Below, one piece after another: positions 1,758 to 42,728 of a stretch of DNA of 45,675 nt. The DNA is taken from the NCBI RefSeq assembly GCF_003096415.1, contig NZ_QEKH01000036.1:1-45675 (forward strand). Reading direction: 5' to 3'. Every line of letters starts with the position of its first letter. Position 1 is the first letter of the stretch. The stretch is from Victivallis vadensis (GTDB lineage: Bacteria; Verrucomicrobiota; Lentisphaeria; Victivallales; Victivallaceae). Below the pieces are notes generated by a model. It did not search any database. It was not told the origin of the DNA and worked only from the letters and a program-made list of their open reading frames with translations. The translations under genes and the position numbers were made by a program.

Positions 1758-4700
1758 TCAATCAATATAATCAATTTTCCGAACCATCATCTTACCTGTT
1801 TCCGGATTACGATCGATGGTTACAATCATTTTGACTTCTCCAGTGATTTCATCATAGTAAATATTATCTTCCGGATCTGATCCAACTTCTTCGTAATCGA
1901 ATTGTCCATTCTTTGCGGGTCTAGTTTGACCTATTCCATCTTTATCAATTCGCGTAATGGGTATTCCTGCCGAATCTCCCAAGTCGCGTATGGTTTGGGC
2001 TACAATGAGCACTTTGATTGTATTCGGAAGTGATCCGCCGGCAGTCATCAAATTAATTGTTTTTCCAATTACTTCTTCTTGACTTGCATCAGTGGTAAAA
2101 CTTGGAGATGAAGCTCCATTGTTATATCCTAACTTACCAAAACCCGTCTTTAAGGTATTACCTGCGTCCTCCCAATTGATAAATTCTGTGCGCAATACAA
2201 AAGGATCCTCCTTGATAGGCTTTGTTTTCAAGGGATTATCGCTGACTGTATCAATACGGTTGCCGGAAGTCACATCAGCAAAGTTACTGATTGACTGTCC
2301 TAACGAGAGATTCAAAAATAATGCCTTAGCGATATCATCATCATTGGCGGTATAACCACTATAATGCTGAGGAAGCATGTTAAGATCAACTTTACCTAAA
2401 GCACGAATGCCAGTTGTCATTTTTATTTGCTCTAAAATTCCACCATCTCCGGCCTGATAAGAAGTCCCGGATTTAGTCCAAGCGTTGTGATTAGGTTCCA
2501 TATCCATGGGGGTAATGTCAGAGGAAGAAGCATTAGGGCTACCGGCATGCTTGAGATTAATTGTTTCCCAAGCCGCACCACGATGAATTACACCGATTTC
2601 CCATGGGCTTTTCATTGGAGCATTACGAATATACGCAGTGGAGAGATGACCATTAGCTGGATCATCAACTGTTTCCTGATCTGCATTGGGCGATTTACCT
2701 CGTGGATCAGCCTCTGTTTCCCTATTTACAGTTCCTTTATAACTGTCTGGAGTTCCACTTGTTTCAACATCCATTACATCTGCCCATTTGTTAGTCGCTT
2801 CATCAAAACCTTTTATTGAAGGATCCGAAACAGACCAATCATCTTCGTTTAGATTTTGGCGTGGGTCTTGTCCGCGCATTCCGCCAAACAGGAATTTATA
2901 TGAATTCTTTGTGTCATCAAAAGTAATAGAAGCTCCTGTCTGCTCCAGCTTCTTTGTTAATTGAGGTTTGACATAATCAAGACCAATCCGTTCGGTCGTT
3001 GCCCCTCCTAAATGTTTATAATCAGCCATTAAAACCATACGACCATTTTGAATGCTGAAATCAGTCAGTTCAACTTCCTTGATCTCGATATCGGATTCCG
3101 AGCTTACTAATTCTACTGCACTCGGATATTTTTCCTTTACCATGGCTAATGTCAGTTCAGGTATTACTGGGGTGGGGGTGCCTGCATCATCAGTTACTGA
3201 AGTATAGGAGGTCTTAAAAAAAGCTCCCGTTCCAGTTTTAAAAGCATACCCATCAGTAAAATCTGCTGCAGAAAAAGAAATTGATTGAGAAGAATTGACC
3301 TCTGTTATGTCATTGGCTGTTTCATTTTTTTCCCATTTCTTGGAAAACTCGACTTTACCATATGTAGCTAGATCAATTTCCATGGGGGTAGATACGGTAT
3401 TATTTGTAGCCGGGTTACCTGCTTCTGTCCGATAAGTGAAATTATTGTAAGCAACCTTGGTAATCTTACCTTTTAATTCAATTCCCCGGAGTGTATGATA
3501 GAAATCAAAATTACTTAAATCATCTGAAATTCCATCATAAATATTAATTAATTTCACTGCGGGTGTTATTTCCAAATCAAATTTGAAACTGCGATCTGTT
3601 TTGTTAACTGCAATACCCGCAGTCCCACTATCATGGCTGATTTGAGATGAAAAACCGATTTCGTAGATGTATGGAGTTTTTTCATTTCCGGTATAATCAG
3701 GCTCTTTGGTCAACCAGTCTTTGGCGGAGATATTGGATGTTGGGATATAATCAGCATCACAATAGTCGTTAAAGTTAGCTGCAATTTGGCGACGGCGATT
3801 CTCCAAACCGGAAAGTCCGTTGATGCCAGTTGTTGCAAATGTTCCTTCATCATCTGCAATTCTTCTTAGAAACGGTAAACCTGAATTAAAGGGAGTACGA
3901 GTATCCGTCTCATTGAAAGGACGGCTGTCATGGGTCAAAGCATCAATTGCACTAGGAGCATTTGGGGTAATTGTTGTATCAGATATGCTGCTCTTGAAAC
4001 GATCATACCAATCATCTGGGGTATAGTTTTCAGCCTCAAAAGGCTTCCAAGAGATCAGAGGAAAACGATGAAAATAGGTAGTATCATCCCCATTTCTCTT
4101 ATAATAAATATAAGCCTCTTTTACGCTGGGATCAGTTCCTTCTGTAAACCAACGCTCGATCCACGCCCTATGTTTCTTACCAGTTTCGGTGGTATCATTA
4201 AAGTCGAAGTTCCCGTCATAGGGACCATATAGTTCATCATAGGTTTGAGGAATATATGTCCCATCATTAATTGTACTCCAACCTTGCAAGATTGTGGTTT
4301 TATCAATATATAATTCATCGATTTCTTTGCCGATACGATCGTTCCAAGGAACTCGACCACTATTAGCAACAAAGCCTCCCAAGACTGATTTTAGATTGAT
4401 ACGGCTGGATGAGGTTGATGGCAAAACCTGATAGGCAACACGACCAATAATTTTACGATCAGTATCGCTCTTATCGCCGGAATCATAAAAATATGTCCAT
4501 ACGGCCTTGCTATTCGAGCCTTTATAATCTAAATCATTATTCAGATAATTTAACTTGGAATTATCACCTGTCAATTGATCATTTGTAGTTTCACCTGAAT
4601 CTGAATTTAAGGTCTTAACTTTGTCATAGCTATAAATTGCAGTAAATTCAGTTGGCCAAAACTGTTTACTGAGATCTGTTTGGTGTTCAGCTTGGTATTG

Positions 4701-39827: not shown

Positions 39828-40511
39828 TTACGGGAGTTTTTCGCCGGCAAGCGTCGCCGCCAGCGGGCGGAGTTCATGTTCCCCGGCCGCTGGAGCGGAG
39901 AGGACGAATTCATCGGAAAAAGCGAAGGCGGTTTCCCCGGCGAACCGCACGGAGCGGTTCCGGCGGATATCGGTGATTTCGGCGGTGAATTTCTGCTTGT
40001 CCCCGGCGACTTCCGGCCACTGGGCGGCGGCGGGAATGCCGTGCTCCCAGATCAGATGGATGCGGCGGGTTTCAGGAGCCAGCGCCAGCAGCAGCCGACC
40101 GGCGGCGGAGGTGTACAGATCGTCCAGAAACGGTGGGAAGCCGCCGGTTGTTTCCGTGCCGTTCCCGTCGAACGCCAGCAGGACGGTGCGTCCGGAATTC
40201 AGCTGCATCGAAATCTGCACCGGCAGTTGATGGCCGAGGGCGTACTCCCGCAGCGGAGCGACCCACTTTTTCTGTTCCTCATTCCGGTATCGCCCGCCGC
40301 AGAGAAGATAACCCGCCGACGGGCCGAGGGTGTAGCCGCCTCGCTTGGAACTCTGTTCGGCGAATCCGGTCAGAACCAGATCCTCAAGCAGCTTCCGGGC
40401 GGTGGACGGGTTGATGCCGACCGCTTCCGACAGCGAGGAAGGCGTTGCGGGAGCGCCCCGGCGGCGCGCCAGTTCGAGCAGCAGCCTCAATCCTTCCTGA
40501 AACACTTTCAT
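39828..40511 (-). CDS. IclR-family transcriptional regulator
   Basis: This 227-residue protein has an IclR winged helix at about residues 1-65 (GLRLLLELARRRGAPATPSSLSEAVGINPSTARKLLEDLVLTGF). The effector domain follows, with PVQISMQLNSGRTVLLAF, LYTSAAGRLLLALAP (the conserved region before the ligand pocket) and an EFVLSAPA segment. It is slightly short for the family (about 250). It starts 12 bp after the AraR-like regulator gene and its ribosome binding site (AGGAAT) lies in that gap, so the two are one operon. Target and ligand are unknown. Confidence 0.82.
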   Translation of the reverse strand: MKVFQEGLRLLLELARRRGAPATPSSLSEAVGINPSTARKLLEDLVLTGFAEQSSKRGGYTLGPSAGYLLCGGRYRNEEQKKWVAPLREYALGHQLPVQISMQLNSGRTVLLAFDGNGTETTGGFPPFLDDLYTSAAGRLLLALAPETRRIHLIWEHGIPAAAQWPEVAGDKQKFTAEITDIRRNRSVRFAGETAFAFSDEFVLSAPAAGEHELRPLAATLAGEKLP

Positions 40512-40523
40512 GAGCCGGATTCC

Positions 40524-41603
40524 TCAGTATTGGCGGCGGTACAGCGGCAGGTAAACGGTTGCCGCCATTTCGCCGAATTGGAAGAAACTGCGGAGCGCCT
40601 TGCTCATGGCGCGCGGTTCCGGTTCGTAGCAGGTGTAGTGCAGTTGGTGTTCGCCCTGCCACGCGGCAGGCGGGGTGAAGCTGAAAATCTTCGGTCGGCC
40701 GAGCTTTCGGAAGAACTCCTCTCCCAGTTTCGACAGCGGATTGATATATCCGGCGAAGTCCACCACCGCTTTGGGTTTCAGCCGTTCGAGTTCGTGGCGC
40801 AGAACCAGTCCGGTCCACTGCGGGAAAGGGGCCTCCGGCAGAGTCAGCAGCCGGTCGGCGTCCGGTTTGCCGCACTGCTGCTTCCAGGCGTCGAGCCGGT
40901 AGCTGTACGGCGGCATGGCCGGATCGCCGGAGATGATCAGCGTCCGGTGCCGTTCCTCCTCCGAAAGCTGCGACAGAATATCGCCGATGCTGCCCGCGTC
41001 ATCGTACAAGATCGCCGGTGAGTGCAGTCCGGGAGGACGGCGGTGAAACAGCAGTTGCCGCACGCCCTGCTGCTCCATGCGGGCGATGAAGGCGATTTCG
41101 CACGATCCGGCATAGAACCAGACCAATGTGTCAAGGCCGTTTTCCAGAATGACCCGGGCGGGATCGGTCGCGGCGTACTCCTGCCATTGCGCGTAGGTCA
41201 GGATCACCAGCTTGCACTCCCCGGCGCTGATGCTGCCGATCACCTCGGAAAGCAGGTCGCGGATATTCCAGACCAGTTCGGCTTCGGAATCCCACGGGGA
41301 GAGGACGATGCCGATCCGCCGCGGTTTTCCGGTGCGGCCCAGCGGCAGTTCGGCGGGATGCTTCACCACGTAGGTGCCGCAGCCCCCGCGCGTTTCAACG
41401 ATCCCCTCCCGGAGCAGCGACATCACCGCCATCCGGGCCGTCACCTGGCTCACGTTGGCGCAGCGGGCGATCTCCCGGTTGGAGGGCAGCCGCCCGCCTA
41501 CCGGGACCGGCGTGTCGGCGATGTAAAAGCGCAACTTGTCCGCCAGAGATTTGGCGAGTTCGCCGTGCGGAACCGCAGTATTGATTTCCAGATTCATAAC
41601 CAT
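40524..41603 (-). CDS. AraR-like regulator: GntR DNA-binding domain plus sugar-sensor domain
   Basis: This 359-residue protein has a GntR winged helix at about residues 12-85 (ELAKSLADKLRFYIADTPVPVGGRLPSNREIARCANVSQVTARMAVMSLLREGIVETRGG in pieces). A LacI/GalR-like sensor follows, with FIARMEQQGVRQLLFHRRPPG, GDILSQLSEEERHRTLIISGDP and a region near VVDFAGYINPL. Two earlier in-frame ATG codons exist. The first overlaps the -10 box, and GGAG before 41603 supports this start. It is divergent from the pilin-glycosidase operon starting at 42033, with a 25-bp operator pair between, so it probably controls both directions. It is expressed together with an IclR regulator. Confidence 0.82.
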   Translation of the reverse strand: MVMNLEINTAVPHGELAKSLADKLRFYIADTPVPVGGRLPSNREIARCANVSQVTARMAVMSLLREGIVETRGGCGTYVVKHPAELPLGRTGKPRRIGIVLSPWDSEAELVWNIRDLLSEVIGSISAGECKLVILTYAQWQEYAATDPARVILENGLDTLVWFYAGSCEIAFIARMEQQGVRQLLFHRRPPGLHSPAILYDDAGSIGDILSQLSEEERHRTLIISGDPAMPPYSYRLDAWKQQCGKPDADRLLTLPEAPFPQWTGLVLRHELERLKPKAVVDFAGYINPLSKLGEEFFRKLGRPKIFSFTPPAAWQGEHQLHYTCYEPEPRAMSKALRSFFQFGEMAATVYLPLYRRQY

Positions 41604-41636
41604 GCCGTCAACTCCGAAACAGGATGTGTTTTTTAC

Positions 41637-41665
41637 AGTATACGTCATCTTCTCCGGGAAGTCAA
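41637..41665 (-). promoter_or_regulatory. Promoter of the AraR-like/IclR regulator operon
   Basis: On the minus strand, TTGACT (41665-41660), exactly 17 bp, TATACT (41642-41637). Confidence 0.75.
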
Positions 41666-41689
41666 GGACGCCGTGATGAAAAGCGCCGT

Positions 41690-41816
41690 AAATCAGATTA
41701 AACCGCTTTAAGCCGCGTTGCCCGGATCAAGTCCGACTCTGCGATGGTCTTTATTGCTGATTTATGTATTCCGGCAAAAGTGAATTAAAGTGGCTTAATT
41801 CGATTTAATCTGATTT
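41690..41816. repeat. Long inverted repeat with phased TTAA boxes, candidate operator pair
   Basis: The arms are 41690-41714 and 41792-41816, 25 bp each with 22 positions matching and 77 bp between. Read from the right arm it is GGCTTAA-N5-TTTAATCTGATTT. TTAA occurs at 41698 and 41708 in the left arm, and at 41785, 41795 and 41805 at the right, all exactly 10 bp apart within each cluster. GAATTAA-N6-TTAATTC (41782-41801) is an additional perfect palindrome overlapping the right arm. It lies between divergent promoters and probably binds the AraR-like regulator, possibly with DNA looping. Confidence 0.7.
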
Positions 41817-41830
41817 TTCTGGAAGATCGC

Positions 41831-41859
41831 TTGACTTTGGGAAGTGAATCCGTCATAAT
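41831..41859 (+). promoter_or_regulatory. Promoter of the third pilin-glycosidase operon
   Basis: TTGACT (41831-41836), exactly 17 bp, CATAAT (41854-41859). The right operator arm ends 14 bp upstream. The predicted leader is about 165 nt, and the rest of the gap to 42033 shows no clear structure. Confidence 0.65.
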
Positions 41860-42032
41860 AAAATAAATAAAACGCCGGTTTGTCGATTGAAATCAATAAG
41901 CATTCATGGGAGAGAATTAATTCAACGGGAAAAAGACGAGGTAGAAAGATAGTTTAATTGTTATTGATAGTCTGCTTGATTGCAGTGAGGAAAATGACTT
42001 TAATTTATGAGGAATAAAGGAAAGATTACAAA

Positions 42033-42728
42033 ATGAAAACAAGAAAATTTACTTTAATTGAGTTGCTCGTCGTGATCGCGATTATTGCGATTCTGGCCGG
42101 TATGCTGCTTCCGGCGCTGAACAAGGCGCGCCAGAAAGCGCGCGGAACCACTTGCATCAGCAATCTCAAACAGATGATGCTTTATACGCAGCAGTATCTC
42201 GACAGTTACAACGGCATGATCACTTGCGAGGGGGACTGGGAACAATGGGCGGGAGCTCTGTTCAAAGCCGGTTTGGTCGGACGCGGCGACTGGAAGGCGC
42301 TCAATTGCCCCGATGTCAACTTCTCTGCGGGAAACCTTGCTGGAGGAGTGGAAGACTGGAAGATCAATATGTTCGCCTATCCCGCTAATTATTTGGGCGC
42401 GGTCAAGATCAATGGAACATATTATGGCGAGTCGTCGGCCAGCCCCTACCGGATTATTCGCGATGCAAGCCATTCCGCGATTAATTTCAAGCCGATAAAG
42501 CAGCCGTCGAACTTCCTGTTTCTTGCCGACGGGCGAAATGATCAGGGAGAGCCTTGGGCGAGACTTTATCTGAAGACTGTCTGCGGCTGGGCAAGCGCTC
42601 CGTGGCGCGGACATAGCAGTACGGGGTTCTCCGCCGCCTGGGGAGACGGTCATGCATCGATGGCGAACGAGGGGAAATTGGAAGAGACCACCTGCCCGAA
42701 AGAAGATATCGCCTGGGCTGCCGAATGA
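42033..42728 (+). CDS. H-X9-DG-type pseudopilin paired with a secreted glycosidase
   Basis: This 231-residue protein has the shortest leader (MKTRK), then [20 protein letters not shown] with Glu5 and Lys rather than Gly at -1. The stalk [20 protein letters not shown] is nearly identical to that of the pilin at 16082. The C-terminal motif is H194, ten residues, D205-G206 ([14 protein letters not shown]), one residue longer than the usual X9. AAAGGAAAG lies before the ATG. The secreted glycosidase gene starts 26 bp downstream in the same direction. Role in export or display of that enzyme is inference. Confidence 0.87.

Follow-up and report, generated by a model that had tools for sequence, protein, structure and literature searches.

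Tandem 10-bp boxes as predicted operators of a GntR-type regulator at a prepilin-glycosidase locus of Victivallis vadensis

The divergent locus and its repeated boxes

The window analysed here is the whole of a 45,675-nucleotide contig (C36) from the 5.2-Mb draft genome of Victivallis vadensis (G000). Towards its right end, two sets of genes diverge from a 429-bp intergenic region. On the minus strand lie the gene of a probable operator-binding protein, hereafter REG (40524 to 41597), and that of a second winged helix-turn-helix (wHTH) protein with a weak match to IclR-type helix-turn-helix domains (39828 to 40511). On the plus strand, a DUF1559-like gene with prepilin-type N-terminal methylation (42033 to 42728) is the predicted first gene of the regulated operon and is followed by a large open reading frame (ORF) that is cut by the contig end (42725 to 45675). 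The latter is matched by no Pfam or NCBIfam model and shows weak PDB similarity to GH5 mannanases at residues 535 to 643, in agreement with the pilin-glycosidase operon that a preliminary description had placed at this position. Large glycosidase-like ORFs of this type form a family of at least a dozen copies per genome in the genus, for which neither Pfam nor NCBIfam has a model.

REG combines an N-terminal GntR-type wHTH domain (PF00392, 39 bits against a cutoff of 27, a match shared by all seven aligned REG proteins) with a C-terminal domain predicted to adopt a LacI/AraR-like fold. A Pfam search of this C-terminal domain gave no sequence match to a LacI-type effector domain. The AlphaFold model, obtained from a seven-sequence alignment (mean pLDDT 80.6), was matched by Foldseek to CcpA, to the effector domain of AraR (3tb6, among the top matches) and to LacI-family proteins, with E-values of 1e-9 to 1e-7; as modelled, REG would possess the LacI-type effector-binding fold of AraR-type regulators. 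All seven aligned proteins have the same recognition helix, VSQVTARMAV.

The intergenic region contains two 25-bp arms (41690 to 41714 and 41792 to 41816), 77 bp apart; in inverted orientation they agree at 22 of their 25 positions. Among 300 dinucleotide shuffles of the region, the best inverted match of this length had 20 positions (mean 16.3) and none reached 22. The tetranucleotide TTAA recurs at exact 10-bp steps, at 41698 and 41708 on the left and at 41785, 41795 and 41805 on the right, where the array holds one TTAA box more; no shuffle out of 3000 produced a TTAA run as long or as many 10-bp pairs. A perfect palindrome on 41782 to 41801, GAATTAA-6-TTAATTC with AGTGGC at its centre, overlaps the right arm. 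These features, announced in the preliminary description except for the extra TTAA box of the right array, withstand statistical scrutiny or are present as described, and the phasing is moreover kept in relatives. The palindrome, in the alignment of ten promoters discussed below, is not kept; we dropped it as a candidate functional element, and it is a by-product of the neighbouring TTAA boxes.

The conserved unit is not the 25-bp inverted pair, but a box of about 10 bp, GYGRCTTAW, whose head-to-tail copies follow one another every 10 bp exactly. Such a repeat has a polarity, a property absent from the preliminary description. On the plus strand, the predicted operator of the pilin/glycosidase promoter (41780 to 41819) consists of the boxes GTGAATTAAA, GTGGCTTAAT and TCGATTTAAT and the weak box CTGATTTTTC. 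On the minus strand, the predicted operator of the regulator promoter (41687 to 41716) consists of GCGGCTTAAA (41716 to 41707), GCGGTTTAAT (41706 to 41697) and the weak CTGATTTACG (41696 to 41687). Each array comprises two strong boxes and one or two weaker ones. An alternative LacI/cre-like reading of the left arm, TTAAANCGNTTTAA, suits some of the sites and fails at four related loci (L079 to L081 and L092), where the direct repeat alone is kept.

Conservation of the boxes with the regulator and with promoter position

Homologs of REG (E <= 1e-25, 33 to 66% identity) are found in 8 of the 137 genomes of the order: four from the genus of the window and four from one genus of another family. 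Since four of the eight come from a single genus and are not independent, about five independent lineages are represented. The tandem repeat, with its exact 10-bp period, lies upstream of the REG gene at every one of these loci (the window, L078, L079 to L081 and L090 to L092), for instance as TGCGGCTTATTGCGGCTTAA at L080 and AGTGACTTATAGTGACTTAT at L092. The sites thus present the traits of a direct-repeat GntR operator: a head-to-tail series of at least two boxes, evenly spaced and kept alongside the regulator at eight loci out of eight. Gene order varies around them. The divergent layout of the window recurs at L078 (contig C13 of G005), with identities of 65% for REG, 52% for the IclR-like protein, 40% for the pilin and 54% for the glycosidase-like protein. 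At L079, L081 and L090 to L092, REG is followed on the same strand by a prepilin gene, and at L080 another long ORF stands between the two.

Sequence constraints at these sites are concentrated on the boxes. Of 20 boxes, 19, 20 and 20 carry the T, T and A of positions 6 to 8, and 19 have G at position 1. The ten promoters of the eight loci align almost without gaps across 85 bp, and invariant columns are nearly confined to the boxes and to the TTGAC and ATA.T hexamers. A leave-one-out matrix, built for each locus without the locus's own sites, retrieved the promoter site as the top match in 8/8 whole-locus scans (17.6 to 25.6 bits), with a best score outside the arrays of at most 11.7 bits. 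When genomes were searched at up to one mismatch, all nine matches in REG-bearing genomes fell at the REG locus, and a match of any kind was seen in 7 of the 8 REG genomes versus 8 of the 129 others (Fisher p = 3e-7), a value to be taken as supportive and not independent because the search pattern derives from these very sites, a circularity that the leave-one-out scan answers in part. In the eighth genome (G046), the site is present at two mismatches. The regulator gene of that genome (L081, 226 to 1283 of the locus, contig C29) is itself broken by a frameshift/TGA, through either assembly error or recent decay, and its operator and promoter are intact.

The 10-bp period is specific to this regulator family within the genomes surveyed. 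No group signal of a 10-bp period was detected upstream of 25 other GntR-paralog genes, and we dropped the idea of 10-bp repeats as a general rule for such paralogs. Nor did a wider regulon emerge: at up to two mismatches, the genome of the window contains only two other weak sites (contigs C8 and C12). Matches elsewhere in the genome to a first-pass pattern drawn from the arms, AATCNGATTNAANCNNNTTAA, needed two mismatches and had no REG homolog beside them; the arm sequence itself occurs once. Outside the order, a more distant homolog (28% identity, recognition helix VSRVTARLAI) exists in G369, from another order of the class, and this out-of-sample test was negative, with no boxes and no recognisable promoter at its locus.

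Promoters were predicted from sequence by scoring against the E. coli consensus hexamers: for each operator, the top-scoring sigma-70-like promoter with a 17-bp spacer was retained within 260 bp downstream, regardless of distance. In the window, this procedure yields two predicted sigma-70 promoters that the preliminary description had not reported. The promoter of the pilin/glycosidase operon (41831 to 41859, plus strand) is made of TTGACT (41831 to 41836) and CATAAT (41854 to 41859), with a predicted start near 41866; that of the regulator gene (41637 to 41665, minus strand) is made of TTGACT (41665 to 41660) and TATACT (41642 to 41637), with a predicted start near 41630. The latter lies within the 374-aa ORF that is listed as beginning at 41648, so that REG is probably translated from 41603 or 41597. 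Relative to the predicted starts, both operators of the window span -86 to -68, are centred at -77 and end 32 bp before the -35 hexamer; the boxes in this position are the two at 41780 to 41798 in the right operator and GCGGCTTAAA and GCGGTTTAAT in the left one.

The same geometry is found throughout: the gap from operator to -35 measures 31 to 33 bp at all ten predicted promoters. At L081, the box pair lying at the conserved distance scores lower against the pattern than the other. The DNA between operator and -35 has a mean pairwise identity of 31%, and a gap whose length is kept while its sequence drifts suggests a geometric requirement, for example a contact with RNA polymerase. The distance from the -10 hexamer to the start varies between about 28 bp and 80 bp or more. 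Promoters of the REG family are also unusually close to consensus, scoring 10 to 12 out of 12 with 17-bp spacers (three of them 12/12), against mostly 6.5 to 9, and twice 10, for the promoters of 15 other pilin genes in the same genomes. Neither a matrix scan nor the promoter alignment revealed a second site over the promoter.

With promoters in place, the inverted aspect of the arms receives a simple explanation. To judge from their sequence and position, the arms are two separate operators, one per promoter, each pointing to its own, and they look inverted because the two promoters, each with an identically oriented and equally distant operator, diverge. Divergent loci (the window and L078) accordingly have two operators and codirectional loci one, and the single operators of the six codirectional loci show the orientation and distance of each paired operator. 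Double sites in which each site controls its own operon are a described class in GntR divergons (PMC4494728). At L078, an extra partial box pair, CCGGCTTAAACTGAAATAA, was noticed on the minus strand (4605 to 4623 of the locus), in opposite orientation and overlapping the regulator-side array.

Predicted mode of control and competing explanations

Our preferred reading, to which we give a probability of roughly 0.7, is that REG binds these boxes and that the operators act separately, each from a fixed upstream place. Binding by REG is well supported and very probable: the preliminary description had attributed the repeats to the regulator encoded at 40524, and the motif is kept at all eight loci of that regulator's family. 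REG subunits would bind consecutive boxes, aligned along a single face of the helix. As the distance to the -35 hexamer is held within 1 bp, REG may work through contact with RNA polymerase, or by governing the upstream DNA used by the alpha subunits, instead of covering the promoter. One promoter would drive REG and the IclR-like gene, and the other the prepilin/glycosidase operon. The LacI/AraR-like domain may respond to a sugar or oligosaccharide that the glycosidase sets free; the most likely outcome would be ligand-relieved repression with autoregulation. We hold this addition of ligand-relieved repression to binding at separate operators at slightly less than even odds.

Near-perfect 25-bp inverted arms around a 77-bp centre might instead delimit a small mobile element (MITE) or form a hairpin in a transcript. 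We rejected both, and their residual probability is negligible: the sequence is single-copy in the genome, no target duplication is visible at the arm ends, the boxes are kept in relatives without an inverted partner, Rfam returns no match, and neither transcript contains the arms since both are upstream of both predicted starts. A repression loop, as put forward in the preliminary description, is a more serious proposal. REG at both arms would be bridged into a loop of about 80 bp, in the manner of the B. subtilis AraR, a protein of the same two-domain layout that binds two-box promoters cooperatively, in phase, with a small loop (PMC4218819), and both divergent loci do carry two arrays. However, six loci out of eight have one operator only, so looping is not the general mechanism, and the divergent promoters with their identically placed operators fully explain the inversion. 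The centre-to-centre distance between operators is 82 bp in the window and 79 bp at L078, a 3-bp difference that alters helical phase instead of adding a whole turn, at odds with the two in-phase operators of an AraR-type cooperative loop. As both arrays lie upstream of both promoters, the loop itself would enclose neither start site. We thus regard the loop as improbable. Still less probable is that another regulator binds the boxes and that REG is merely a target. One candidate would be the IclR-like protein, whose gene adjoins REG in the window and at L078 and whose family includes proteins able to bind tandem sites (PMC8222616). A second would be an AraC-type protein whose gene lies elsewhere, since AraC proteins fit direct repeats. 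The boxes, however, track REG across the 137 genomes, and the IclR-like gene is found at only 2 of the 8 box-bearing loci versus 8 of 8 for REG.

The sign of control is more finely balanced. REG could be an activator that, once bound to its direct repeats at -77, uses the alpha C-terminal domain to bring in RNA polymerase, like AraC-type and MocR-type regulators (TauR, PdxR). An upstream-only site, a distance fixed to within 1 bp and the lack of a second site over the promoter all favour this possibility. A repressor acting solely from -77 would be unusual, the position being commoner for activators. Precedents come from MocR-type regulators, GntR-superfamily proteins that bind direct repeats and are often activators (PMC5320631), and in particular from TauR, whose box is CTGGACYTAA and which activates its promoter (PMC4254191). 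Against activation stand the near-consensus promoters, of a kind that rarely needs an activator and that the other pilin genes of these genomes lack, and a LacI/AraR-like sensor domain, which is mainly a repressor architecture. The quality of the promoters and the AraR/CcpA/LacI-like fold make us lean to repression, at about 60:40 over activation, a judgement drawn from general knowledge of promoter architecture; in the specific form stated here, the activator hypothesis seems less likely than not to us, yet it is a serious rival. Repression or activation aside, the fullest version of our preferred reading can be offered only tentatively: an AraR-layout regulator that dispenses with palindromes, aligns its subunits head-to-tail at one per turn, contacts polymerase from a rigid -77 position with no site over the promoter, and switches near-consensus promoters off (or on).

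Relation to known regulators and to other pilin loci

In domain organization, REG most resembles AraR of Bacillus subtilis, with a GntR wHTH followed by a LacI/AraR-like effector domain (predicted in the case of REG), and the two are also alike in their association with polysaccharide-breakdown genes and in an autoregulated promoter (again predicted for REG). Their sites differ: AraR recognizes 16-bp palindromic boxes, At(T/A)tGTaCGTAcaa(A/T)T, and paired boxes loop (PMC4218819), whereas the predicted REG sites are direct repeats of GYGRCTTAW without the GTaCGTAc palindromic core, spaced by 10 bp at a fixed -77 and usually forming a single array. The predicted mode of DNA recognition recalls that of TauR and other MocR regulators, in which a GntR wHTH binds direct repeats at whole-turn spacing in autoregulated divergons (PMC5320631); the TauR box CTGGACYTAA resembles GTGRCTTAA. 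MocR proteins, however, carry an aminotransferase-like PLP domain that is missing from REG, to which NCBIfam MocR models match in the wHTH only and far under their cutoffs. In the MocR direct repeats characterised by experiment, the spacing is two or three turns (PMC5320631), versus one turn for the boxes found here.

Two further GntR proteins share part of this description. FarR, from the HutC subfamily, has a 10-nt direct-repeat motif, TGTATTAWTT (PMC4494728), and differs from REG by its subfamily and box sequence. The other protein, NanR of E. coli, has a tandem direct-repeat operator as well. It is a FadR-type protein, without a LacI-like domain. Several cooperating NanR dimers bind (GGTATA)3, in which less than half a turn separates successive repeats and which is located downstream of the polymerase site (PMC8012715), whereas the boxes found here are one turn apart and upstream. 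Direct-repeat operators are already known for several GntR-superfamily proteins, namely NanR, FarR, NagQ, TauR and GabR (PMC8012715, PMC4494728, PMC5320631). No description of the GYGRCTTAW box, or of how these operons are controlled, was found in the literature searched, which covers few subscription journals. The analysis brings to the Victivallales a predicted operator, as well as the regulator, promoter and target operon that go with it. The rigid operator-promoter distance makes this system well suited to testing cleanly whether polymerase can be controlled from upstream by an AraR-like protein. Pairs of prepilin and large-glycosidase genes are numerous in these genomes, and control of one set of them is now directly testable.

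Another such pair displays a different kind of variation. Upstream of a prepilin-glycosidase pair that is 95%/90% identical to that of the window, a segment of about 290 bp has 100% identity but opposite orientations in two genomes (L076, 3623 to 3907, on contig C23 of G005; L077, 3160 to 3444, on contig C19 of G006). The segment is bounded by 16-bp inverted repeats (ATACTGGATATGTGAA / TTCACATATCCAGTAT), which extend into the start of the prepilin ORF, and a tyrosine-recombinase-like ORF is present at L076 (268 to 1674). From its sequence, the segment resembles the 5' end of a pilin gene that can invert and may be phase-variable. Around position 8330 of L082, before another prepilin gene of G005, lies a diverged version of the repeat, CGGGTATGTGAAACGAAACAGCATTGCCGCC, which suggests that there may be more such invertible sites.
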